Shown piece by piece: positions 25,308-55,429 of a stretch of DNA of 64,000 bases (position 1 is its first letter; every line of letters starts with the position of its first letter). The translations under genes were made by a program, and so were the position numbers. Source of the DNA: Daphnia pulex (taxonomy: Eukaryota > Arthropoda > Branchiopoda > Diplostraca > Daphniidae). The stretch lies in contig NC_060021.1 in assembly GCF_021134715.1 (NCBI RefSeq), positions 6,076,001 through 6,140,000 of the forward strand, given 5' to 3'. The notes beneath the pieces are model-generated. The model worked only from the letters and a program-made list of their open reading frames with translations, was not told the DNA's origin and ran no database searches.

Positions 25308-26770
25308 TTAACGTTCATCGCTGTTGTTATTGTTACCTCCTTCTTCTTCACTATTGGCTCCGTTTTCTCCAGCTTTCGTTTCCTCTTCTTCTTTACCTTC
25401 TTTGATTTCATTCCCCTCTCCTTGTTGATCCTTTCCGCCAACTTCCGTGGCACTTTCCACCTCCCCATCAGGAGCATTGGCAATTTCTGTGGCGCTTTCA
25501 ACGATCTCAACTATCGCCTCAATCACGTCAATCTCCGGTTCATCAACTGGATGAGCAACTACTTCGGGAGCAACTTCTTCGGGAGCAACTACTTCAGGAG
25601 CAACTACTTCAGGAGCAACCACTTCAGGAGCAACTACTTCAGGAACCAGCTCTGGTTCATCCACCACCTGCGCTTCAACTTCGCCGGAAACAGGTTCGAC
25701 TTCTTCGGCAGACAGAGGCTCTGCCGCTCCATCAACAACTTCAGCCGACAGCGGTTCTTCCGCTGTAACAACTTCCGGGGCAGGTGGAGCAATAACGGCA
25801 ACGGGGGCAACGACCTCGGCAGGTGGAGCAACAATCTCGGGGGCCGGAGCCACAACGGCCGGCGTGACCAGCTCGCCACCGGTGGCAGGTTTTTCTTCTA
25901 TGGCCGGCGAACCGACAACACCTTTCTCTTCGCTTACGGGCAACGGAGTTTGACTACCTTTTCCCTTGAACGGTTTGAACGCGGTGAAAGGCTTCTTGTT
26001 GGTCAAACCGTAGGCGCTGGCCTGTCCTGTGTTAGTGCTGCTAAAGACGCCGCTGGAGACACTGTATCCGGAATGAGTAGTACCACCAGTTGTTCCCTGA
26101 CTGGACCCGTAACCGCTGCTGATGGGTGCCGTACTTACGGGATGGACGTACGCTGGTTTGACGTAGGCCGGTTTAACATAGGCGGGTTTAACGTAGGCTG
26201 GTTTAATGATGTACACAACTCCTTTGCCGTGGTGATGGTGGGGGTGGTGATGATGCCCACCTTTACCGGGATGTCCGTGTTTACCGTGATGAGCTCCTTT
26301 GCCTTTCGGACGAATAGCATCCCATCGAAATAGCGGAACTCCTTTCGGAATTCCGTAGCCTTGGCCAATGTATCCGCTGCCGTATGACTTGCTAGGGACG
26401 CCATAACTACTCTTCACTTTTCCTGAATGAACGTTTGATTACAGTTATTAGCTTATTACACGTCGGGTGAATTTGATTCAATTACCGTAAGTAACTCCGC
26501 GGGGCACAGACGACACCTGGTATTTGGCTTCAGCCAACTCCAAATCTTGCCAGGGGGCAGCCATATGATTATACTGGACGGACGACATCGCTCCGAAAAT
26601 CACGACGAGCATCGCATTCTGCGGGAGGAGGAAATTCCCAGACACAAATCAAATGGAAATTCCCAGTGGGGAAAAAAATCAATCAAATGAAAACGTGAGC
26701 GATTAGAAACAGGATGTTTTAGCAGCGCAATCAATAAATGTGTACTCTATACCCTCAAAATGATCAGCAT
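25308..26770 (-). CDS. Secreted His-rich and Ala/Pro/Val/Glu-repeat protein (3 exons)
   Basis: Function unknown; it looks like an extracellular matrix or cuticle-type structural protein. Exons are 26753-26770, 26486-26618 and 25308-26422, joining in frame to 421 residues. The first exon codes for only six residues (MLIILR); with the start of exon 2 it forms a hydrophobic signal peptide ending near residue 21. A DLELAEAKYQ stretch follows and resembles the DLNxAEHKKKK core of the small paralogues next door. Then come Gly/Tyr/Ser sequence, a His/Gly/Lys-rich block (about 91-124), four tandem PAYVK/H units (about 125-145), an acidic region of repeated APEVV units (about 244-352) and a Glu/Asn/Gly-rich tail. 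Intron phases (0, then 1 inside a Gly codon) match the four genes upstream. Family assignment rests on architecture only. Confidence 0.85.
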
Positions 26771-26903
26771 TGCTGCTATAGTTCAATCACAAGTGATGAT
26801 GTGGGAATATTTCAACTGTTTTCACGATCGAACTGAAAAAATGTGCTGCGTCCGGGACTAAGAGCTGATAAGTTATGTCAACATTTGCTCTGAGAAATTT
26901 TCC

Positions 26904-26910
26904 TTTTATA
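26904..26910 (-). promoter_or_regulatory. TATA box of the 421-residue secreted protein gene
   Basis: TATAAAA on the minus strand, about 134 bases upstream of the start codon at 26770. The other genes of this cluster have the same element at a similar distance. Confidence 0.6.
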
Positions 26911-26926
26911 AACCACTCAAGTCTAA

Positions 26927-28212
26927 AAAGCGTGATGCGGCAGCAAAAGGGGGAAAACGTTTCCTGGCAATTAATAAGGAACAAGTGAAACCAAGTCGCC
27001 ATCGGAGAAAACTTGCAAACTTGCTTACATTTGAATTGATTGAACACGCGGAAACGGAAAGTAACAGATAAGGTTTTCTAAACTGAGGAAGAAACCGGAT
27101 GACTTCCCATATCGTTTCAACTAGTTCCTGGACCGTCTCAGATGGGAAAAAGTTGGTCCGACTCCTTTCACGTTTCCTGTGTTCCCATGTAATATTGTTG
27201 ACTGGTCATTTGTGTATCTTATTATCTCCACTTATTAAATCTACAACATTATTTAAGTAACCTATTTCCATATAGCGCATCTTTCGTCTAAGGCAGAAAT
27301 AGAAAATGAAATATTGGAGTTGAAACTTTCACCCAGGCAGACTGTACACATGCGTTGAGTTAACAATTCTAATCGTGAAAAAGTGCAAGCAGTACGTTTG
27401 ACTGCTTTTACTCCTCAGCGCGATAAGCAGGTTGCGATAATAAGACCGGATAAACCCCAATTGGTTATTTGACAGTCATAATAATAATAATAATAATACG
27501 GGTTTCCCTTTCTTTTGTCTGGATTTGATATATACCTGTCTCAGATATACTCGTCTATAATTGCGGTATGTTCATGTCTGCAGCTTCTGATTGAACGACA
27601 CGTTTCCAAAGAAAAAAACCCGTTGCAATTGCATTGTTCTACTTGTGCGGACTTGTGTAACAGAAAAAACAAAACCTGACCAGTTATCTGGTCCGATTTC
27701 TCCCAACCACTCTTATTGTATTGAATGGTAATAATGGCTGCATTCTTAATAGACAGCAGGTCACTAAAAAATGAACGGTCAATCAACTTTCGATATCAAT
27801 ATTCAATAATAACCGAATACCGACTGGACAAAAGTAAAAGGCTATTCTTATCGTTGATTTGCTTCATATATAGGTTGCAGCACTCATTTTTGTTCATTCA
27901 ACTTGATTAAATCACACGGAATATTGTTTTTCGTACGGATATATCTTTTATTGAATAAATCTGATTTCATCGCAGCATGTGAAATGAGTGGATAACACGA
28001 TATAGGTATTTATGTATACGTCTAAATGATTTTTGAAAAGTAATCAAAGCGCTGTCTCTGGTGACCGCATTAGGCACTCTCCTTGAACTGGAATAGATAT
28101 TCGCAAGAATAAGTCGAATGGCCTGACGGCTAATTGTTTTCTTGTGATTTATTCTGTTATTACCTTCTGTTGCCAACGCCCTGGAATTTCCCCTTTTTTC
28201 TCCTAATTCTTA
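26927..28212. other. Spacer between the first two cluster genes
   Basis: AT-rich spacer with no supported exon. It should contain the 3' UTR of the 79-residue peptide gene; TTTATT (AATAAA on the minus strand) occurs near 27950. A short ATA run lies near 27480-27500. Confidence 0.5.
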
Positions 28213-28605
28213 TTAACGACCTTCTTCGCTGGAACCGCCACCACCTCCTCCACCTCCTAGTCGATTGAAAATAATAAAGTAGAAGATTAAGTCAGGCAAC
28301 CAGAAATACATATTCCTTTTTTACAGCGTATTAATATTTTACCTCTGTACTTCTTCTTCTTGTGCTCAGCAACATTCAAATCATGAGAGATGGCCGTCTC
28401 TACGGGGCTCGTCAGTCCGCTCATTTCGGCCGCAATTCCCAAATCCTGGGCGGTCGCAATGGGATTAGCAGCTGCCTCCATGGTGAAAGACACGGCCACC
28501 AATACCGCAAGGAGCATCGCAACCTAAGCGACAAATGCACAGCGGTAAGGAATCAAAACAAGGAGAAATGACGAAAACTTAAAAATTTACTTTGAATGAG
28601 CCCAT
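28213..28605 (-). CDS. Small secreted Gly-rich peptide, cluster paralogue 1 (3 exons)
   Basis: I do not recognise a described family. Exons are 28591-28605, 28343-28523 and 28213-28256, giving 79 residues in frame. Exon 1 encodes only MGSFK; joined to VAMLLAVLVAVSFT it makes a signal peptide ending near the AAA preceding residue 25. The mature part contains HDLNVAEHKKKKYRG, then a run of eight glycines and the end SSEEGR. The basic core followed by a glycine tail and an acidic/basic end is shared with the two genes upstream, so these three are paralogues. A secreted matrix peptide, antimicrobial Gly-rich peptide or peptide precursor are all possible; the sequence does not decide. Confidence 0.85.
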
Positions 28606-28718
28606 CGTTGTTACAGCGAATCCAGAGTCCTTTTTCTTCTTTACTGGGAATACAGCGGATTATTGTTACTTGTAAAACAATCGTTGGTGATGTGACGAAT
28701 CGAATAAATGTGTCTCCG

Positions 28719-28725
28719 TTTTATA
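28719..28725 (-). promoter_or_regulatory. TATA box of paralogue 1
   Basis: TATAAAA on the minus strand, about 114 bases upstream of the start codon at 28605. Confidence 0.6.
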
Positions 28726-28739
28726 CGTCAACAACTTTA

Positions 28740-29824
28740 GCCCATAGGCAATATTTATTGGTGAAATGCTGATTGACAAGTGAGTTTGAGTTGTCTGGGG
28801 CAGTTATTCGTTTATTCCAAGGACAAGTGAAAGGCAAGCAATAAATTCTACCGTTGTTTTCGAAACAAGAAAATGTGGGCTCGAGTCAATGAAAGGGTCA
28901 TACTTTACTATCACAAGAGAAATCATGGCTCGTAAGTCGTAATAAGACAGAAAAATCCATGAATTGAAAAACAATAATAGTTTATGAATGTACCATTTAA
29001 AATAATTTCCATTTGCATGTATACTGTTGACACCCCTCTGAACGTCAAAATGTCTTTTGTTTTATTCGTCCGACGACTTTTTTCCTCACCCGTTCCCTTG
29101 TTTCAATTTTTACTTTTTACTTTTTTAGCCGCCATTATGGATTTCCATAGCGCGGATTTCGAAGAAAGACTTTGGTTTAGAGATTCATTCTCTTCCTGTC
29201 GCTAAAAGGTTTACACAATCTAATTTGCATATTTACATGTTTTTGGTCCCAAAAAGAATGTAGTCAGTTTCGCGCAGACCACACCTGCACACAGCATACA
29301 TCCGCCGTGCTGTTGCCTGTTGAATAGTTTAGTTTGACTAGTTGTTAGTGATCTGACAGCTGTTTTCTAACAGAGGTATTCAAAAGGCAACGTGCAAGGC
29401 CGTGACACAGTGAGAAACGTTTTTTTCAAAATATCCACGAAAAAGGAAAGAAAATTCCGTTCAAATTTTCCCATGTTTAATGAACAGTGGCGATTTTGGA
29501 ACTCGTTTTGCAACTCTTTTTCGGTTGAGTGAGTGGGACGATTTCTAGAAAGTAGGTGGCCTGTCATTTGGAAAAGCGACAAACAACTATAACCAGCATA
29601 GAGAAACACCGACGAAAGTGAATTTCAATTATATAGTCTCTGTTTATTTGTTTTCAAAAATACAAATGCCAATTGTGGATCGCACATCGATAAAATGTCC
29701 AGCTGTAATAATTGCGAGCTGGAAACGACGTTTAGAAGAGAAAATCAAGAACGAAAGGGCTACAGAAATAGAGCATATGATATGGATAGTAAATGCGGAT
29801 GCATGTTTTATGCAAACACATTCT
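28740..29824. other. Spacer between paralogues 1 and 2
   Basis: No supported exon in this AT-rich spacer. It should hold the paralogue 1 upstream region and the paralogue 2 3' UTR. Confidence 0.5.
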
Positions 29825-30221
29825 TCAGCGGCGTTCCTCGCTGGATCCACCGCCGCCGCCACCGCTGCTGTGTCCGTAACTTTGTCCGTGTCCTGTAATT
29901 GGCGAACGACGATTCAAGAATCAGAAGCTAGTTCAGGAGAAAATGAATTTGAATTTTTACCTCTGTATTTCTTCTTCTTGTGCTCGGCTGCGTTCAAGTC
30001 AGGTAAGACGGCCTCTGGTATGGTGCTGCCAGCCACTCCCAAGTCTTGGTTATCGACGATGGGAATACTGGCCGTCTCCAAGGTGTAAGCCACTGCCACT
30101 AAAATCGCAAGGATCAAAACAATCTGCGTTTTCAGATAATAACACAAATTAAACATTTAAATTATACAAATGGCTATATCGCAATTTTGACGAGAAATTC
30201 AATTACTTTGATGGAACCCAT
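29825..30221 (-). CDS. Small secreted Gly-rich peptide, cluster paralogue 2 (3 exons)
   Basis: Exons are 30207-30221, 29961-30123 and 29825-29892, giving 81 residues. The order is the same as in paralogue 1: a five-codon first exon (MGSIK), a hydrophobic signal segment (IVLILAILVAVAYT), a short variable region, the core LPDLNAAEHKKKKYRG, then HGQSYGHSS, six glycines and the end SSEERR. The phase-0 and phase-1 introns are at equivalent codons. The core is nearly identical to paralogue 1 while the region between signal and core differs, so the core appears to be under constraint. Function is unknown. Confidence 0.85.
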
Positions 30222-30356
30222 TGTTGCTGGCAGAGAGTTAAATAACTAAAGCGAAATTTTGCGAATTCAGTTGGACTGGGTAGAGCGAATAATTGGTGTC
30301 CCGATAGAACAAACTGTTGGTGTTGATTTGATGATCCAGTTTGGGGACGGCTGTCC

Positions 30357-30363
30357 TTTTTAT
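30357..30363 (-). promoter_or_regulatory. TATA box of paralogue 2
   Basis: TATAAAA on the minus strand, about 136 bases upstream of the start codon at 30221. Confidence 0.6.
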
Positions 30364-30379
30364 ATTAGATTCATCTGAC

Positions 30380-31021
30380 GGTTGCATCATAATGTCTCGA
30401 TTTCACGCTTGAATAGTTGCTAATGAGCTGGACATAAACGAACGATTTTTTCGTATTCAAATATGTTTCGAGTCTAAGAGTGAAAGTCATTCCTTTTTTT
30501 GTGTTGTAGAAAAAAAAACTTGATCGATCATTCAACGTCTTTATTCGTCCAGTATACATTGATTTCTAAACCCGTCACATTCTCTACTGATGAATTTTTC
30601 AAGGGAAAATCCAAGGGAAATCTATTCGTGAAAAAGTTCACAATTCATTCCCTTTCGCCCATAAGAAATTTGACGAAAAGGGAATAACTTAAATTTCGTG
30701 ATTTCTTATCTCTCTAATAACGATTGATTTATCTAGACTCTGCACCTTTATACTAAACTTGCAGTGTAAATACCTATCTGTTGTTTTCGTTTATTTCTTG
30801 TTTGTATAATCACGCACGTATACAAAGCACTGAAACGGATGCAGAAATAGAACATTATGAAATGTTACTCATTAGTTTTGTTTGATAAAATATGAAAGTC
30901 GAGTTTCTCTTTCGTTTGCTAAATTATATAAATAATTTTTTTTTATTTAAAAATTTTGTAGATCACCAATAATAATTTCACTGGTCCTTGTTAAAGGTCT
31001 TTAAGCAAATTTGCAAGTGGT
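30380..31021. other. Spacer between paralogues 2 and 3
   Basis: AT-rich spacer without a supported exon. It contains the expected 3' UTR of paralogue 3. Confidence 0.5.
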
Positions 31022-31521
31022 TCAACGTCCTTCTTCACTTGATCCACCGCCTCCACCACCTCCACCCCCGCCTCCTCCTCCATATCCACCTCCCCCTCCC
31101 CCATATCCATATCCATGACCATATCCATATCCCCCATATCCACCACCTCCTCCATATCCTAGGGAATATCACAAGAATATCACAAGAGCGATTTTTAATA
31201 AGATGTACACACGCAAACGTTTGTGTCAATTTCTGACGTTTTAACATCTTATTACCTCTGAACTTCTTCATTTTGTGCTCGTCCGCATTCAAATCTTGAA
31301 TGTAGATGGGGGAAACGAGATCACTCTTCACTTTTGCCATTTCACCATCACTCTTTGCCATTTCGGCGTTGGCCTTGCCGGGTAGTACAAAGTAAGCCAG
31401 TGTCGTGAAAATCACGAGGATTAACGCAACCTGTTCAAAATCGCAATATAATAATTAAGTAACAATAAAAAAGATAATATAGAAATGAAAGCAATAAATA
31501 CGTTACTTTTATCAAACCCAT
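31022..31521 (-). CDS. Small secreted Gly/Tyr-rich peptide, cluster paralogue 3 (3 exons)
   Basis: Exons are 31507-31521, 31256-31430 and 31022-31158, giving 108 residues. Exon 1 encodes MGLIK, followed by a hydrophobic segment (VALILVIFTTLAYFVL) and a small internal near-repeat (EMAKSDGEMAKVKSD). The core is QDLNADEHKMKKFRG, a slightly diverged form of the core in paralogues 1 and 2. The tail is the longest of the three: alternating Gly and Tyr with one His, then an unbroken run of about 13 glycines and the end SSEEGR. Gly/Tyr tails are typical of cuticle and adhesive proteins, but this is only a compositional hint. Confidence 0.85.
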
Positions 31522-31635
31522 TTGTACTTTTGGATTAGGAATAAAGACTTGAACAACTCAAACGCGGAGATGGATGATGCTGCTGAAAGAGCAAACAATC
31601 TCAGATGTGATGTGGGGATTTACTTGCAGTCGACT

Positions 31636-31644
31636 CTTTTTATG
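31636..31644 (-). promoter_or_regulatory. Possible TATA-like box of paralogue 3
   Basis: CATAAAAAG on the minus strand, about 115-120 bases upstream of the start codon at 31521. It is weaker than the TATAAAA of the sister genes. Confidence 0.4.
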
Positions 31645-31951
31645 CTGTCGCCATTTCGCTCCAATTGCGACGTGTGACATATGTCATGATAATCAGCCAA
31701 ACGATCTTTTGTGTCGTTTGACCTTGCAGTGTGCGAGTGAATGTGAAAGGAATGTAACTGACAGCTAAAAACTGACCGAATTATTTTTAGCGAAAAATTC
31801 TAAGAACATTGCGAAAAAATTTCAAAAAACTTAATCGGTGTATTGATTGTAAAGCACACAGCACCGTACAATTGAACTCAACAAACAGTTATGATTCGAT
31901 AAAATGAAAGATCTCTGTAACGATGAACAAATTGGATGAGAATAAATGGCA

Positions 31952-34882
31952 TCACGTCACAACTGGTTTTTTGTGTCCCCTCGTTAATCGGCGAAGTGGA
32001 ATGTAGTACGTATCGATTGGTAAATATGGAACTAGCATTGGTAGTGTAGCGAAGGGATCGCTGCCGTCTTTCCCGGAGGATCCTTTAACATCTTTCCCAA
32101 CAACGGCAGAGTCGTTGGAAAACAAATGAGTAATACCTTCCGTCGTAGTTTGAGGTTTGTATCTGGGCAAATATCGGACAGCCGTATTATGAGCGTTGCT
32201 GGATCCACTGCTTCCAGCACTCGTTTGTTGCTTATTTAATTCTCTTTGGCTTCTTCCACCAGATCCGTCGCTTCCAGAAAATAAAGTATCTTCCGGTTTA
32301 GATGTGGGTCTGAGTCTTGGGATACGTGTTTCATTAGCGTTACTACGTTTTCCGTCATCAATATTTTTCACATTTTTAGAAACCTCGCCGACATTCCCAC
32401 TAAACCCGAATAGAGAAATAACGGCAGGTTCCATCCATGGCAATGGTCTGTACCTTGGAGTATGACGGGTGTGATTCCCTTCAGTCAGATTGACTGCTGT
32501 TACTTCAACTCTCTCGGAAGTTGTTTTTTCAGTTAATGGCGTAGGTCTTGGTCTGGCAGGACGGCGAGTGCTACTATTACCAACTGATCCTCCGCCACTG
32601 TTTCCCAATGTGCTGCCTTTCGTCACGACTCCAGAAGTCGTATTTCTAGATGCACTACTAGCCGCACCGGATCTTCCACGTTCGCTATCGACAGAACCTT
32701 TATTACCAACACTTGCTCTGTTGCTATTCACTTTTCTGTCATTTCCAGGTCTTCCAGGGGAAACCGAACTGCTCACGATGTGCGATGCGCTGGCCTTTCC
32801 GCTGCTGTTGGATTCGATTAGAGGTGTGATGCTGAAGCATCCGCCAACGCAATCAGGGTTGCTATTCTTTTCTTGACTTGTCCCAGGTGTACTCCTGACG
32901 GATGGTGAGGTTGTATTCCTAGTAGATCGATTTTCATCTTTCCCCTTGTTTGCATTGGTCCTTTGCTCGCCATCGCTCTTCGTTCCTGACGACGAGCTGT
33001 TAGTTTTCCCACTGTTGTTGCTAACCGGTGGTCTATTAGTGGATCCATTGTTTCCATTTCCGGAATCCTTATTGGCTGCTACTACATTTGCCGGACCGTT
33101 TTCGTTGCTGACATTCAAAATGCTCCTTTTACCGCCAGAAGAAACTGTTGCGCTGCTACCATCAGTCCCGGCTTCTGATGCTTTGCCACTGTTCGGAACA
33201 TCAGCACCTGTGGCTGAGCTTTGAGGTGATGCTTTTTCACTGTTTTGACCTTTTTCATTATTGGCGGTTGAAAAGTGGACGCTGACGGAAAATGCTTTTT
33301 CGCCACTGTCATTGCCGTCAGTTTGGAAATCTACTCTGACAGTATTGTTTCCATTTTCGTTGTTCGAGCTGCCACCTTTTGTATTGATGGAGACGTTGAT
33401 GGTTTTCCCATTTCTTCCGCTTCCGCTAGTTGGAGCTGCAGTACTACTTGTTGCAGGTGTAACTGGTGTAGTACTTCCCTCGACTTCGCTATCGGATAAT
33501 GTTTCGTCAATTTCACTAGTGCTCCGCTTTTTCCCGCTGGCCTCGGATGCACCGGTAGCACTGCTTCCAGATCCGCCGTCTCCTGCAAGGCTGCTTCCGG
33601 ATTCACTCCCTCCATCTGCAATACTTCCAGATTCGCTGCCTTCGTTTACGTTGCTTCTGATGGCACCTTCGGATTGATTTTCGCCTGTTCCGACACTTTC
33701 GTCTCCGCCTGCATTGCTTCCGGAATCGTTGTTGCCCTCTAAAATACTGCCGATGGGTAAATTCTCCCATGTTCCACTGCTGTCTCCATTTCCGTTGTTT
33801 TCAGATGAGCCACCTCCACCTCCATTAAAGCTGCTTCCGTACGAATCGTATCCAACTCCGCTGATTCCATATGAAGTGTCTACATGTCCGTACGAGTTAC
33901 CCACATATCCGTACGAGGTTCCTACTGCTCCGTACGAGGTACCTACTGTTCCGTAGGACTCTATAACGGCTCCGTATGAATTGCCTCCGTTGCCATTGCC
34001 GTGGCTTTCAGACGAGCCACCGCCATGGTTGTTGTTGCCGCCCCCGTATGAGTAGCTGTATCCACCGCTTCCATAAGGAATGCCTCCTTTGCCTTTTCCG
34101 TAAGATCCTCCTTTTCCTTTGCTTCCGTAACTTTTTACTTTGCCATAAGAGCCTCCCTTTCCTTTTCCTTTGCTTCCGTAGCTGCCCCCTTTTCCTTTGC
34201 CATACGATCCTCCTTTTGCTTTTCCGTAGCCTTTTCCTTTGCCGTAAGATCCTTTGCCTTTGGCTTTACCCCCGTAAGAGCCGCCTTCGTGTTCGTATGA
34301 GCTGTATCCGTCGTCGTATCCGCTGCCATAACCGCCTCCTACTCACAAGCAATTAAGAATAGTCAAATTAACATTTTCTTAAACAGAGTACAGAGATGAA
34401 GACGGGGGTAGATTAGCTTAAAATGAATATGCATTTACCTCCTTTTCCTTTGCCTCCTTTCCCCTTTCCTTTTTCTTTTTCGTGAGAGATCACAACGTAT
34501 CCTGAACGGATCGAAACATTAGGATTGAAAAACGATGTTCGATAATTTATTATGACGTATTGACGAAAATTGAGTTAATTACCTCCATTTCCCTTGTCAC
34601 TTTCACCGTAGTAATCACTGCTGTCAAGAACAGATGGCCTATGATATTGTAGACTACCAGCATAAGGTTGAACGTAATGGACGGGACTAATGTGTCTTTT
34701 TCCATGGGTCGCTGCTATCGGTTCCAAATCGCCTTTAGTATTCTTTTTTGCACAACCCACCGCTGTCACTAATGCAGCAGCAATCAGAGCAATCTGTTTC
34801 AAGAGAACAAGATCTATATTTGATACTGACCCATTTGATACTTAACAATTGGCTGAAAAATAATTACTTTTAAAATCGCCAT
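31952..34882 (-). CDS. Large secreted Ser/Asn/Gly-rich protein (4 exons, 891 residues)
   Basis: Function unknown; composition suggests an extracellular matrix, mucin-like or adhesive protein. Exons are 34868-34882, 34583-34793, 34439-34501 and 31952-34338, in frame throughout. Exon 1 is five codons (MAILK) with a phase-0 intron, and exon 2 completes a signal peptide (IALIAAALVTAVG), as in the small peptides beside it. A GKR dibasic site follows near residue 35. Residues about 77-175 alternate Gly/Lys with SYG. About 215-265 holds tandem TSYG/NSYG units spaced six to seven residues apart. From about 265 to 860 the protein is dominated by Ser, Asn, Gly and Thr, with many potential O- and N-glycosylation sites. 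The C-terminus (LVPYLPIDTYYIPLRRLTRG) is not low-complexity and may be a folded or binding end. The last exon alone is 2.4 kb, unusual for this gene-dense stretch. Confidence 0.85.
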
Positions 34883-34992
34883 GGCTGCCGGAGAACGATT
34901 TCACAGTTGCAGTTCACGAGGGAATCTTTAATGCGTCCTAGTAGAGGAAGAGTTGTCGGGAGTGTAAAGTTTTGGTGTAGCAGCGGTCTCAC

Positions 34993-34999
34993 TTTTATA
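34993..34999 (-). promoter_or_regulatory. TATA box of the 891-residue secreted protein gene
   Basis: TATAAAA on the minus strand, about 111 bases upstream of the start codon at 34882. Confidence 0.6.
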
Positions 35000-37072
35000 A
35001 CCTAACAATGCTTTCCATAAATGGCTTGAATGAAAAAAATCGAATTTGAATCGAAATTTGAATTGTTGACACTATTATTACCAATCAAGGAGAGAGTGAA
35101 AAGAAGTTGCTAGAGAAAATACTGGAAAAACGCGCGAGACCAACACGTTGTGGAGTCGAATGAGGTTACTTTGAACTGAGAGTGAATTTAAAAAACTGAA
35201 AAAACCGCGTAAAAAAACAGGCAGTTTTGAACTTATTTGTTGTCGCATAATCTACGAAGTGAAAGGAAGCAGCTGGAGAAAGCAAATTAACTTTTACTCG
35301 GCAATAGAAACCTGATCAACTTGTTTGATTTCTCCTGGTCGATTCACCACTCCCATATTCGTTTAATAAACAGTAACAATACTTCGTAATGCGAACTAAA
35401 TTTGTCAAGGAATTTGTTTTCCACCGGTTCACTAGGAGTATAACCAACTTTCCTCTGGGTTAGCAGCTCTAGTAAAATATTGTGTTTGCCTTCACTGTGA
35501 CAGATGACGCTTTTCTGAAAGAGTAATGTTAGTGAAATTTCAGTTTCAACGGCGAACACACCCAGAAAAAAGTTTCTCCAACAAGAATCTGCTAATCTCA
35601 GAAGAATCTTCTTCCTTTTTCTATTTATGCGTCTAACCAGTCGGTTTTCTAGAACAGGTTCTTGACAAAATCGAACGCGAATGAAAAGAAACTTGTCTTA
35701 TTACTATTACCATTCAAGAAATCAGATTAATAACTAGAGAACATATATGCATCATCCGTCTAAGCCGGTCTAAGAAAAATTGTCAAAATGACTTGACTCA
35801 CTTAATTGTGTACGTCCGTAATTAATTTAGAAAGGGATTTGAGGAATTTAAATCAAAAGCGTTTTTTTTTCGTTTACTGGGGAGGAATAATAATAATTAT
35901 CATGTGGACCCTGCTGTCAGACACTATGCGGAAGTCAAAACAAATTTGCAAACTGTAGGTACCTTAAAATTCTACTGTGCGTTCTGTGTAAAAGATCGTA
36001 TTCTATAGGAATATCTTAGTGACATTTTTGGGTAATGAATATCTAATCAATTTCCAAACATTTTGGCTGCTGTAGTTGAATTTTAAATGTTGTTGTAGAT
36101 TACTCTGAAATATTTGATTAAATAGGAACTAGGAAATGTCGGAGATTGCTTTTGTAAATCACCCCTTCATGAAGAAAAATTTAATTGATTTACCTTATTA
36201 GTTCTGCTCCGTGGAGTTGAAAATAACTGAAATCAGCCAAAGAATCAGCAGACAAACTACTTCACCTGAAACTATCGCACGCGCTTCTGTCAAATCAATA
36301 GTCGATGAAGTGCGGTGAACTAGCTAGTGAAACCAGATGCCCATCAAACTTTCATTTCTTGTGTCGCGATCGCTTGCGGTCATTCTAATAGTTGCAGGAA
36401 AAGCAGAGCCAGTTTTTTGTTTTATTCTCAGTTTCTGAGCGTGTTCCTGTCATCACGTCACTTGACATTCCGGAAGCTGGTTATACTTCTCTTGTAGTAT
36501 CTATACTGAAGTTGGGATACGTTCGTAAAGCTGCGAATTTTTGCGCAAAAACGCGCCTCTTATTCTAATTGGCTGAACTAATAAGTTCCGCATCTGTGAC
36601 TGTGACTTGTCTCCCGTCCTGCAGTGCACAAAATAAACGGCAACTTTAATTGCTGCATTGCACAATCTAAAAACGGTAAAAAACTTAGGTCGGATTAGGC
36701 GGATGAGCCCTATGTGACTTCCATTGATAATAGAGTGGAGAAAAAGAAAACACTATTATACGGTACATCGGCTTGATGAAATTTATTCTGACTGACTAAA
36801 CCATCACCCAGAAAGTAAGAGAATAACAGTTAATATTAAAAACCTACACCATCAACAGAGAAGGTTAGATTGGTTAGTTGAATACAGTAATAACGAGAGT
36901 GTTTGTTAGTTTTTAAATTGCAATGAAAAAGGGTTGTAAAGTGCAGGTTAAAGCAAAAAGTTACTTGACTAATTTGCAACAATGTTCAATGGGCAAGTCC
37001 AAAGTCGTTTCAAGGTCCAGATCGCAATGTCTAAGGAGTTCCATAGTCCGGTTTTGCAGAAGGATTTGCCTT
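35000..37072. other. Gene-poor spacer between the secreted cluster and transglutaminase
   Basis: No supported coding exon. The part near 37072 should be the transglutaminase 3' UTR. A minus-strand frame at 35344-35559 has no signal peptide or recognisable domain, and I do not count it as a gene. Confidence 0.5.
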
Positions 37073-43517: not shown

Positions 43518-46189
<2,672 letters not shown>

Positions 46190-48395: not shown

Positions 48396-48792
48396 CTTGA
48401 TTCGAGTTTTTGTTGTTTTCTTGAGTTCTTCACGTTTTCTTGTCGAACAGAACTCGAAAAGTCAAATGGCAAAATGATGTTGCCAAGTTTAACAATGTTT
48501 CTATGATTTCTACGTTGATGAAGATACAAATGAATAAATATCAAATTACATATTTTATTATTATTAAATTTATGAATAAAATTTTTTTCTTAACTAAAAC
48601 TGTTTTTATCTGAAAAATTTCGAGATGATCGAGAATGTAAACATTATTTCATATTTTTGTTTATTTTGTGATTTATTGTCGTCTGCATCCTCTATTTTGA
48701 ACTTGTCTTCCTATTTTGGGAGTTCTTGAAGACTTGAACCGAGGGTGTTGCTTCAGATATTACTATAGTTAACGAGTTGTAACTGGTTGGAA
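48396..48792. promoter_or_regulatory. Bidirectional promoter region between Translin and the TMEM69-like gene
   Basis: The start codons of two divergent genes, at 48395 (minus) and 48793 (plus), are only about 400 bases apart, so both promoters and 5' UTRs must lie here. The sequence is AT-rich and shows no obvious TATA box. Confidence 0.5.
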
Positions 48793-49476
48793 ATGCTCTT
48801 AATTCAAAAACTTGTAAATCCTCTTGGGAATTCAAGCAGATATCTGAGATGGAATTCTGTTTGCCTGGCAGTTAGTACTTCAACAAGAAACCTTCATTTG
48901 TCTCGGCCTAATGAATCAGCTTTCGGCGAAGATGCCAAAAATGCCCTCCGTAATTTTGGTGATATCAAGCACGCTCCTATCCCAGCATTAACATATGGAA
49001 TTGGAGGACTTTTCCCTTTCACTGCCATCCCAGTGTATATGTTGTCATCAGGAGTGTACATCCCGGAAATGGCTTTCACTTCAATGGCCTACAGTGCTGT
49101 TATTTTGTCATTCATTGGTGGAGTACGATGGGGATCAGCTGTATCAAACCCTGAGGTAAGCTCACAAAAAATTCTCCTTTTTCACCAGTTAATCTTTTCT
49201 TTTCTCTTGCAGATAATGAATCCCAACTGGAAGAATTTCACTACCTCTATTGCACCCTCTATTGTCGGATGGATGTCACTACTAGTCAGTAATCCTATTG
49301 GCACCTTACTGTCCATTTCTGGGTTCTCCCTGTGCCTCTTGCAAGACATGACATCAAGCCAGTTCCCTTCTTGGTACAAATCTTTGAGAATTTTGCTTAG
49401 CACAGTTGCAATTTGTGCTTTGCTAACCACTTTCATGTGCCAATTCTTGCTTCCTCTGGAGCCCAAAAAAGAATAG
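48793..49476 (+). CDS. TMEM69-like (DUF3429) membrane protein, probably mitochondrial (2 exons)
   Basis: Exons are 48793-49155 and 49213-49476, joining in frame to 208 residues. The start is the ATG at 48793. The N-terminal 50 residues are rich in Arg, Ser and Asn with almost no acids (SSRYLRWNSVCLAVSTSTRN), like a mitochondrial import signal. About five membrane helices follow: TYGIGGLFPFTAIPVYML, AYSAVILSFIGGVRWG, the SIVGWMSLLV region, the LSISGFSLCLLQ region and LLSTVAICALLTTFM. Motifs GGVRWG and FPSWYKSLR are characteristic of the family and recur in the adjacent paralogue. The biochemical role of the family is not established. Confidence 0.85.
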   Translation: MLLIQKLVNPLGNSSRYLRWNSVCLAVSTSTRNLHLSRPNESAFGEDAKNALRNFGDIKHAPIPALTYGIGGLFPFTAIPVYMLSSGVYIPEMAFTSMAYSAVILSFIGGVRWGSAVSNPEVSSQKILLFHQLIFSFLLQIMNPNWKNFTTSIAPSIVGWMSLLVSNPIGTLLSISGFSLCLLQDMTSSQFPSWYKSLRILLSTVAICALLTTFMCQFLLPLEPKKE

Positions 49477-53594: not shown

Positions 53595-53693
53595 GGGTGT
53601 CCCTAAACTATGGACTTGGACAGTCCATTTTGGACTACTAAACTATGGACTTCGATCGAAAACTATGGACTTCACCAGATGGCGCTGCCTGTC
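53595..53693 (+). repeat. Left terminal inverted repeat of the transposon
   Basis: Matches 55331-55429 in reverse complement with no mismatch seen over 99 bases. AAACTATGGAC occurs at 53605, 53640 and 53660. Confidence 0.92.
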
Positions 53694-54992: not shown

Positions 54993-55330
54993 ACGTTAAA
55001 TGACTTTGTTTTATTTCTTTTCTCAAATGTCAAATCAAGAATAATAAAACCTTTTTTGAAATGTTCAAAATGTACCTTGTAAATCGTGTATTAATATTCG
55101 CAATACACCATTCGGAATGAATTTGTGGTTTGCTTAAATTTAATTAAAAGATATATTCATTTAACCTTTTAAAACTTAAGCGAAAATATTCGGATCTAAG
55201 CCAAGTTTATACATTTAAAGTCCATACTTTAGACGCCAAGTCCAGTGTTTCGGATATAACGCCATCTGATGGAGTCCATAGTTTCTGCAGGTTAAAGTCC
55301 ATATTTTAGGTCCCCAAGTCCATAGTTTCG

Positions 55331-55429
55331 GACAGGCAGCGCCATCTGGTGAAGTCCATAGTTTTCGATCGAAGTCCATAGTTTAGTAGTCCAAAATGGA
55401 CTGTCCAAGTCCATAGTTTAGGGACACCC
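55331..55429 (-). repeat. Right terminal inverted repeat of the transposon
   Basis: Exact inverted partner of the left repeat. Diverged copies of the subterminal motif (AGTCCATAGTTT on the plus strand) continue inwards to about 55215. Confidence 0.92.

Follow-up and report, generated by a model that had tools for sequence, protein, structure and literature searches.

In Drosophila, clusters of 3, 4, 5 and 10 genes for low-complexity secreted proteins have been described that show no evident homology, and their origin was called a puzzle (section 9 of PMC2932725, from the available part of that paper). Their products are Gly- or Pro-rich, secreted and nearly cysteine-free, carry no Pfam domain and end in tails that cannot be aligned. 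Other described systems share parts of this design. For example, the Drosophila glue genes Sgs1, Sgs3, Sgs7 and Sgs8 join a signal-peptide intron to conserved ends and repeats of very unequal length (PMC10835880, available sections), insect glycine-rich cuticular proteins (CPG; Bombyx GRPs) have a signal peptide and Gly-rich repeats with Tyr or His and are dispersed over chromosomes (PMC4171585, likewise in part), and CPR cuticular proteins (PF00379, Chitin_bind_4) are secreted and clustered, with a very short exon 1 and a phase-0 intron in the signal peptide (PMC2259329, in part). Here we describe a comparable cluster of five genes, A to E, on the minus strand of a 64,000-base stretch of Daphnia pulex DNA (hereafter the window), which spans bases 6076001-6140000 of contig C5 (NC_060021.1) in a searched assembly of 133.19 Mb and 13 contigs.

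We consider it probable, at roughly 0.6, that genes A to E form one cluster of a dispersed multigene family of at least 20 genes, in which a leader and a charged module are followed by diverged tails and whose products are matrix or cuticle proteins. The Drosophila clusters show no recognisable homology in the available text of PMC2932725, whereas the Daphnia genes share a leader motif directly after the signal peptide, with the consensus D-L-x-x-[AS]-E-x-[KR]-x-K-K-[YH]. Motif positions were counted in a hand alignment of 19 distinct genes, comprising A to E and the members outside the cluster (P1 to P15), with P15 in and P5 out, being near-identical to P4. Asp at position 1 and Leu at position 2 are each found in 19/19, Ala or Ser at position 5 in 15/19, Glu at position 6 in 18/19, Lys or Arg at position 8 in 16/19 and Tyr, His or Phe at position 12 in 17/19. 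A dibasic pair, [KR][KR], with His, Tyr or Phe behind it comes after the motif in 14/18 genes (P5 and P15 left out), a count reached by 0/20000 shuffles, which ignore relatedness. All five window genes carry the DLxxAE motif with its basic and Tyr/His positions, strongly in C, D and E, by alignment and shuffles in B, and more weakly in A; gene A has Ala where the others have Glu, and gene E has no dibasic pair.

Similarity beyond generic signal peptides was assessed with profiles built outside the window. A full profile was built solely from genes outside the window, with the first 44 residues of each of P1-P13, and used to score 4399 reading frames (25 residues or longer) from the window, 30 CPR loci and the locus L060. 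C (1.2e-11) came first, ahead of D (7.7e-9), A (2.2e-4) and E (0.012); below these four, from 0.1 upward, followed mostly frames of CPR loci, with B at 4.4. When the profile was restricted to the mature part and P1, the closest relative, was removed, C (2e-5), D (2.4e-5) and E (0.003) still led all 4399 frames, followed by a frame at 0.37, with B at 1.3 and A at 15. Removing P1, P2, P3 and P13 together gave C 0.0017, E 0.0042, D 0.0046 and A 1.7, then 4.7, with B unlisted. Shuffled post-signal sequences reached the real score in 0/2000 cases each for C, D and E, in 1/2000 for B and in 17/2000 for A. A chance reading of the motif was rejected on these jackknives and shuffles. Over the leader exons B is 36% identical to C (blastp 9e-6) and to D (8e-6), the leader being counted in these values, and B, C and D align over their length and have the C-terminus GGGSSEE(G/R)R in common. 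The first-pass annotation had proposed common descent followed by divergence of the tails; this is supported for C, D and E by the profile and for B by its alignment with C and D and its shuffles, and most weakly for A.

The gene models were spliced by hand and checked by script, on the basis of splice consensus and comparison, and all 11/11 introns have GT-AG borders. Exon 1 comprises 5, 5, 5, 5 and 6 codons in A, B, C, D and E, and intron 1 is of phase 0 and lies inside the signal peptide in 5/5, so that the arrangement first read from the sequence, five adjacent minus-strand genes with a 5-6-codon first exon and an intron within the signal peptide, was confirmed. The exon 1 of gene E (donor GTATAG) is the least certain model, as an in-frame ATG also occurs early in its exon 2. 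Later introns are of phase 1 and split a Gly codon in 6/6 cases, as had been noted, but gene A, with four exons, has two of them where one per gene had been described. Phase-1 introns generally favour G|GN codons owing to the splice consensus, and the Gly split is therefore weak evidence alone. Nor is the phase-1 rule universal, because the second intron of P12 looks phase 2 (by eye) and the models of P13 and P15 have no second intron. The further claim that only the 3' part differs between the genes did not survive, given that the post-signal part of exon 2 varies in length and sequence and that B, C and D have a common C-terminus.

Intron 1 had also been taken as the mark of a special cassette, a reading that comparison with CPR genes removes. 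Chitin_bind_4 cuticle genes are abundant in this genome, with at least 150 above the cut-off (331 candidates, best 150 scored). The 30 loci with the highest scores, which include close paralogs, were scanned upstream of the domain for a start codon with a few further codons, separated by a short intron from a hydrophobic exon in phase 0; 27/30 showed this design, compared with 3/30 on the reverse strand. Exon 1 has 3 codons in 24/27 of the matched CPR loci and mostly 5 in the leader family. The same design occurs in 86% of those Anopheles CPR genes that have introns, and their short first introns were called 'not unique to CPR genes' (PMC2259329, available part). An exon 1 of 4-6 codons followed by a phase-0 intron, as found in 5/5 window genes, is thus common to CPR genes and non-diagnostic. 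Since 27/30 CPR loci also have it, intron 1 alone is no proof of common descent, and shared descent rests on the post-signal motif instead. These counts, together with the CPR frames that rank directly behind the family in the full profile, are what would be expected if unrelated secreted low-complexity genes had come to look alike through the short exon 1 and hydrophobic leader typical of arthropod cuticle genes. Such convergence is nevertheless highly improbable and is largely refuted already for B, C, D and E: C, D and E top the mature-only rankings both with and without P1, P2, P3 and P13, B, C and D align over their length, and DLxx(x)E with the dibasic-H/Y/F site occurs in 0/26 CPR leaders.

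The family extends well beyond the window, and the impression of an isolated five-gene array has to be abandoned. Fifteen further members lie outside the cluster, nine of them on the same contig and six elsewhere, giving 14 of the 20 genes on C5, two each on C7 and C6, and one each on C8 and C12. Twenty is a lower bound, as the genome searches score best candidates only, and the family was collected by chained searches starting from window genes. Query C matched P1 (E 0.005; C5 at 11.80 Mb), which has the intron phases and GGGSSEE C-terminus of C; query B pointed to the adjoining P2 (E 0.40), and P3 was then found by reading onward. With P3 as query, P4, P5 and P6 were found at 7.17-7.25 Mb; P2 led to P13 and P5 to P7-P12, while a consensus query recovered P3-P13 together with two new genes, P15 and P14, the latter being the fourth in the 11.80 Mb cluster. 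Structures outside the window cover 13 genes (leader exons only for P7-P12, partial for P3), with P14 by eye, and P15. P4 and P5 (C5:7166395-7168307; L065, L068) are near-identical and divergently oriented, with near-identical TATA regions, and may represent either a recent inverted duplication or gene conversion. Directly upstream of the 11.80 Mb cluster lies a serine protease gene (GDSGGP) with a clip-like region, recognised by eye (L060, C5:11805236-11812000). A minus-strand locus on another contig (L083, C2:9622301-9623100) holds DQDVADWRHYGYFGGHGG, an RGRR site and a Gly/Tyr-rich stretch; it is a possible distant relative and was not counted as a member. Other candidates were rejected on reading: L006, L008 and L017 as chance or low complexity, L019 as collagen-like, and also L021, L058 and L066.

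In two of the outside genes the motif itself is multiplied. P15, a two-exon gene at C6:3599076-3599876 (L084, L082), has seven motif units, DLEAAEHGHKKYKG or variants of it, six of which are followed by RKGR, and a Gly/His/Tyr tail at the end, and P13 has two units with RKRR between them. In at least one gene, therefore, the charged module is more than a leader remnant. The same sites, with the KK, RR or KR pairs in 14/18 genes and the very short tails behind the site in C (24 residues) and D (16), could also describe a prepropeptide family, in which convertases would cut at a dibasic site after a short propeptide to free Gly-rich antimicrobial or signalling peptides, with P15 as a multi-copy precursor. 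We regard this as unlikely. The sites are mostly KK, and KK is not a furin consensus; the exact dibasic form is absent from E, P10, P11 and P12, the net charge of the stretch before the site ranges from -7 to +3 instead of being acidic throughout, and some 850 residues follow the site in A. Moreover, P15 amplifies the motif itself, which is a poor fit to a propeptide that is discarded.

The tails behind the module fall into poly-Gly, Gly/Tyr, KGKGK, His/Pro/Val and Ser/Asn/Gly types. Their initial description was accurate: B and D have poly-Gly, B also Gly/Tyr, E has His plus PAYVK and APEVV repeats, and A has a Ser/Asn/Gly exon some 795 residues long. The window proteins end in SSEEGR or SSEERR, in NNNNSDER or in HKKPVVT, and outside the window P1 has the GGGSSEE C-terminus of B, C and D. 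Two GGGSSE copies inside A resemble these ends (0/20000 global and 1/20000 local shuffles, for a motif chosen after sight). The KGKGK module forms a separate exon in A, P3, P4, P5 and P6, and by eye also in P7 and P14; exon 3 of gene A (YVVISHEKEKGKGKGG) resembles exon 3 of P3 (YIIISYGGRLGKGKKG), also on C5, at 1/2000 shuffles. The mature part lacks cysteine in 8/10 genes checked, A and P2 having two each.

Retention of the promoter, also proposed at the outset, is supported in part, with one of its two elements present throughout. A TATA-like box precedes all five window genes, 120-143 nt upstream of the ATG in B (CATAAAA), C, D and E, and lies 74-150 nt before the ATG in 19/19 upstreams (P15 outside this set). 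The second element, TTTCACT, stands upstream of A, C, D and E and not of B (Table 1), and the P15 upstream has a TATA box and no TTTCACT. In the forward direction TTTCACT occurs in 12/18 non-redundant family upstreams, whereas 300 dinucleotide shuffles averaged 1.6 and never exceeded 6; the shuffle maximum over all non-simple 7-mers was 11, and the background was 14/230 window tiles. The element was found by looking, so these statistics are descriptive. Of the 30 CPR loci, 26 have a defined start, and 21 of those upstreams are non-redundant; among these a TATA box occurs in 20/21 and TTTCACT in 6/21 (family excess, Fisher 0.019), and a longer form, TTTCACTTGT, occurs in 5/18 family upstreams vs 0/21 CPR upstreams. 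TTTCACT may be part of a broader programme of cuticle genes. In reverse complement, CTTTCACT contains GAAAG, named as the BLIMP1 core in the accessible part of PMC6448932, and a putative Blimp-1 site there is a lead only.

Table 1. Coding exons and predicted promoter elements of the five-gene cluster, in window positions.
Feature	Position	Strand	Structure and parts
Gene A	34868-34882, 34583-34793, 34439-34501, 31952-34338	-	4 coding exons, 891 aa; leader, GDLEPIAATHGKRH, YVVIS..KGKGKGG module (exon 3), Ser/Asn/Gly tail
Gene B	31521-31507, 31430-31256, 31158-31022	-	3 exons, 108 aa; leader, DLNADEHKMKKFRG, Gly/Tyr tail, C-terminus GGGSSEEGR
Gene C	30221-30207, 30123-29961, 29892-29825	-	3 exons, 81 aa; leader, DLNAAEHKKKKYRG, short Gly tail, SSEERR
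Gene D	28605-28591, 28523-28343, 28256-28213	-	3 exons, 79 aa; leader, DLNVAEHKKKKYRG, poly-Gly tail, SSEEGR
Gene E	26770-26753, 26618-26486, 26422-25308	-	3 exons, 421 aa; leader, QDLELAEAKYQ, His-rich stretch, PAYVK and APEVV repeats
TATA box of gene A	34993..34999	-	TATAAAA
TTTCACT upstream of gene A	35095..35101	-	
TTTCACT upstream of gene C	30479..30485	-	
TTTCACT upstream of gene D	28826..28832	-	CCTTTCACTTGTCCTTGG; stretch in gene D promoter, CCTTTCACTTGTCC
TTTCACT upstream of gene E	26984..26990	-	TTTCACTTGTTCCTT

The products are most likely matrix or cuticle proteins, a predicted function that follows from their composition, their lack of cysteine and their likeness to CPR genes. The CPR-like leader intron, the TATA box, the occurrence of TTTCACT in CPR genes too and the Gly/Tyr/His bias all agree with it. 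Gene B, at 32% Gly, fits the composition of the CPG proteins, a class defined by composition in the available text of PMC4171585; in the available portion of PMC13322756 the word glycine is absent from the main text. A set of secreted mucus, adhesive or gut-lining proteins comparable to glue genes, instead of cuticle, is distinctly improbable. Its appeal lies in the long Ser/Thr/Asn tail of A, in the Sgs genes, which join a signal-peptide intron to repeat tails of very unequal length (PMC10835880), and in barnacle cement, which has Gly/Ser-rich low-complexity proteins with charged stretches between (PMC5099703; both sources in part). In the accessible text of PMC10835880, however, Sgs introns are of phase 1 at residue 10, compared with phase 0 after codon 5-6 here, and Sgs proteins end in IRXC[L/V]C; neither feature is present in the window genes. 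TTTCACT is also raised in CPR cuticle genes (6/21 vs 14/230 tiles).

Several results weigh against descent of all five genes within one family of matrix proteins. Gene A has the weakest predicted family membership. Its mature part alone is weak, as the shuffles and the E value of 15 given above indicate, and it is missing among the mature-only full-set matches; its membership rests on the full profile and on the likeness of its exon 3 to that of P3. As queries, A and E match only themselves and one weak locus, L014 (query E, 0.13), P1 matched C and D only weakly (0.02, 0.09), and genome searches with P2, P3, P5 and the consensus recovered none of the window genes at E<=10. Because members were collected by chained searches, the profile retains some dependence on the window genes, which the jackknives reduce and do not remove. 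A tree of 19 leaders, with groups at 0.9 or above for C/D/P1 (0.916), P3/P14 (0.905), A/P8/P9 (0.903) and one large group (0.920), places A with P8/P9 and not P3, and B with E (0.707) and not C/D; it was given little weight because it has so few columns. On function, the RKGR and RKRR sites of P13 and P15 are also compatible with peptide precursors, and no chitin-binding domain or curated Pfam match was found. The Pfam scan took in 17/20 members (five from the window and 12 outside, some cut short; P5, P9 and P14 left out), and none of the 17 reached a cut-off. Chitin_bind_4, the R&R domain of the CPR proteins, gave no match at E<=1 in these 5 window and 12 outside proteins. Sub-threshold scores included Ebp2 for B (18.6 vs 28.8 bits) and GRP (PF07172), which resembles the family in its leader and Gly-rich composition, for P10, P12 and P13 (19.7-22.2 vs 30 bits); PF07172 matched no window gene at E<=1. 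GYR and YLP (PF02756, PF02757) were unlisted at E<=1 in the 17 members, though motifs as short as these may be lost to HMMER filters.

The SSEE of B, C, D and P1 contains what we take to be two overlapping S-x-E secretory-kinase sites. Speculatively, this C-terminus could be phosphorylated and bind calcium mineral. S-x-E is only weakly raised over shuffles, which counts against the idea (P 0.02 for B, 0.06 for C, 0.05 for D, 0.12 for E and 0.59 for A), and enrichment in A and E was rejected, there being no excess. Amorphous calcium carbonate occurs in the D. magna carapace, as do phosphate bands that may be due to phosphoproteins (PMC7772340, available part); family members are candidates for carapace phosphoproteins of Daphnia.

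If the family arose as proposed, tandem and dispersed duplication would have preserved the promoter, the leader and the charged module, and exons bounded by phase-1 introns would have been free to grow, be added or be lost with the frame intact. The low-complexity tails, usually behind phase-1 introns, could then have diverged freely. As matrix or cuticle proteins, the products would be laid down outside the epidermis or another lining epithelium, where the module might provide a processing site or an acid/base contact and the tails might set material properties. It is also possible, if doubtful, that an ancestral promoter, signal peptide and DLxxAE module were repeatedly fused to new low-complexity exons through symmetric phase-1, Gly-splitting introns. 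Were this so, it would explain why arthropod arrays of secreted low-complexity genes look non-homologous, and the module would be the functional constant, either an assembly contact or a convertase-released peptide, as the seven-copy gene on C6 may illustrate.

The leader genes form a real family whose homology is hidden; judged by Pfam and PubMed Central text the family is new, though its general kind is known. Exact motif strings were found in no paper in PubMed Central text, a search outside which subscription journals and databases lie, and solved structures gave no relevant match. Homology here is legible in a short leader motif that tail-dominated comparisons overlook, which makes the origin puzzle of PMC2932725 (section 9, available text) testable by an arthropod-wide motif profile search. 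With one leader and many tails, the family also offers a natural series for matrix design.

Elsewhere in the window, an open frame at 43790-44257 (-) matches the MH2 (Smad) domain (Pfam E 2e-43) and another at 48769-49473 (+) matches DUF3429 (Pfam E 1e-31). An Rfam scan of the window gave no match. A tandem repeat at 55215-55386 has two copies of a unit of about 77-80 bases, and within it AAGTCCATAGTTT matches, in reverse complement, a piece repeated at 53603-53671.

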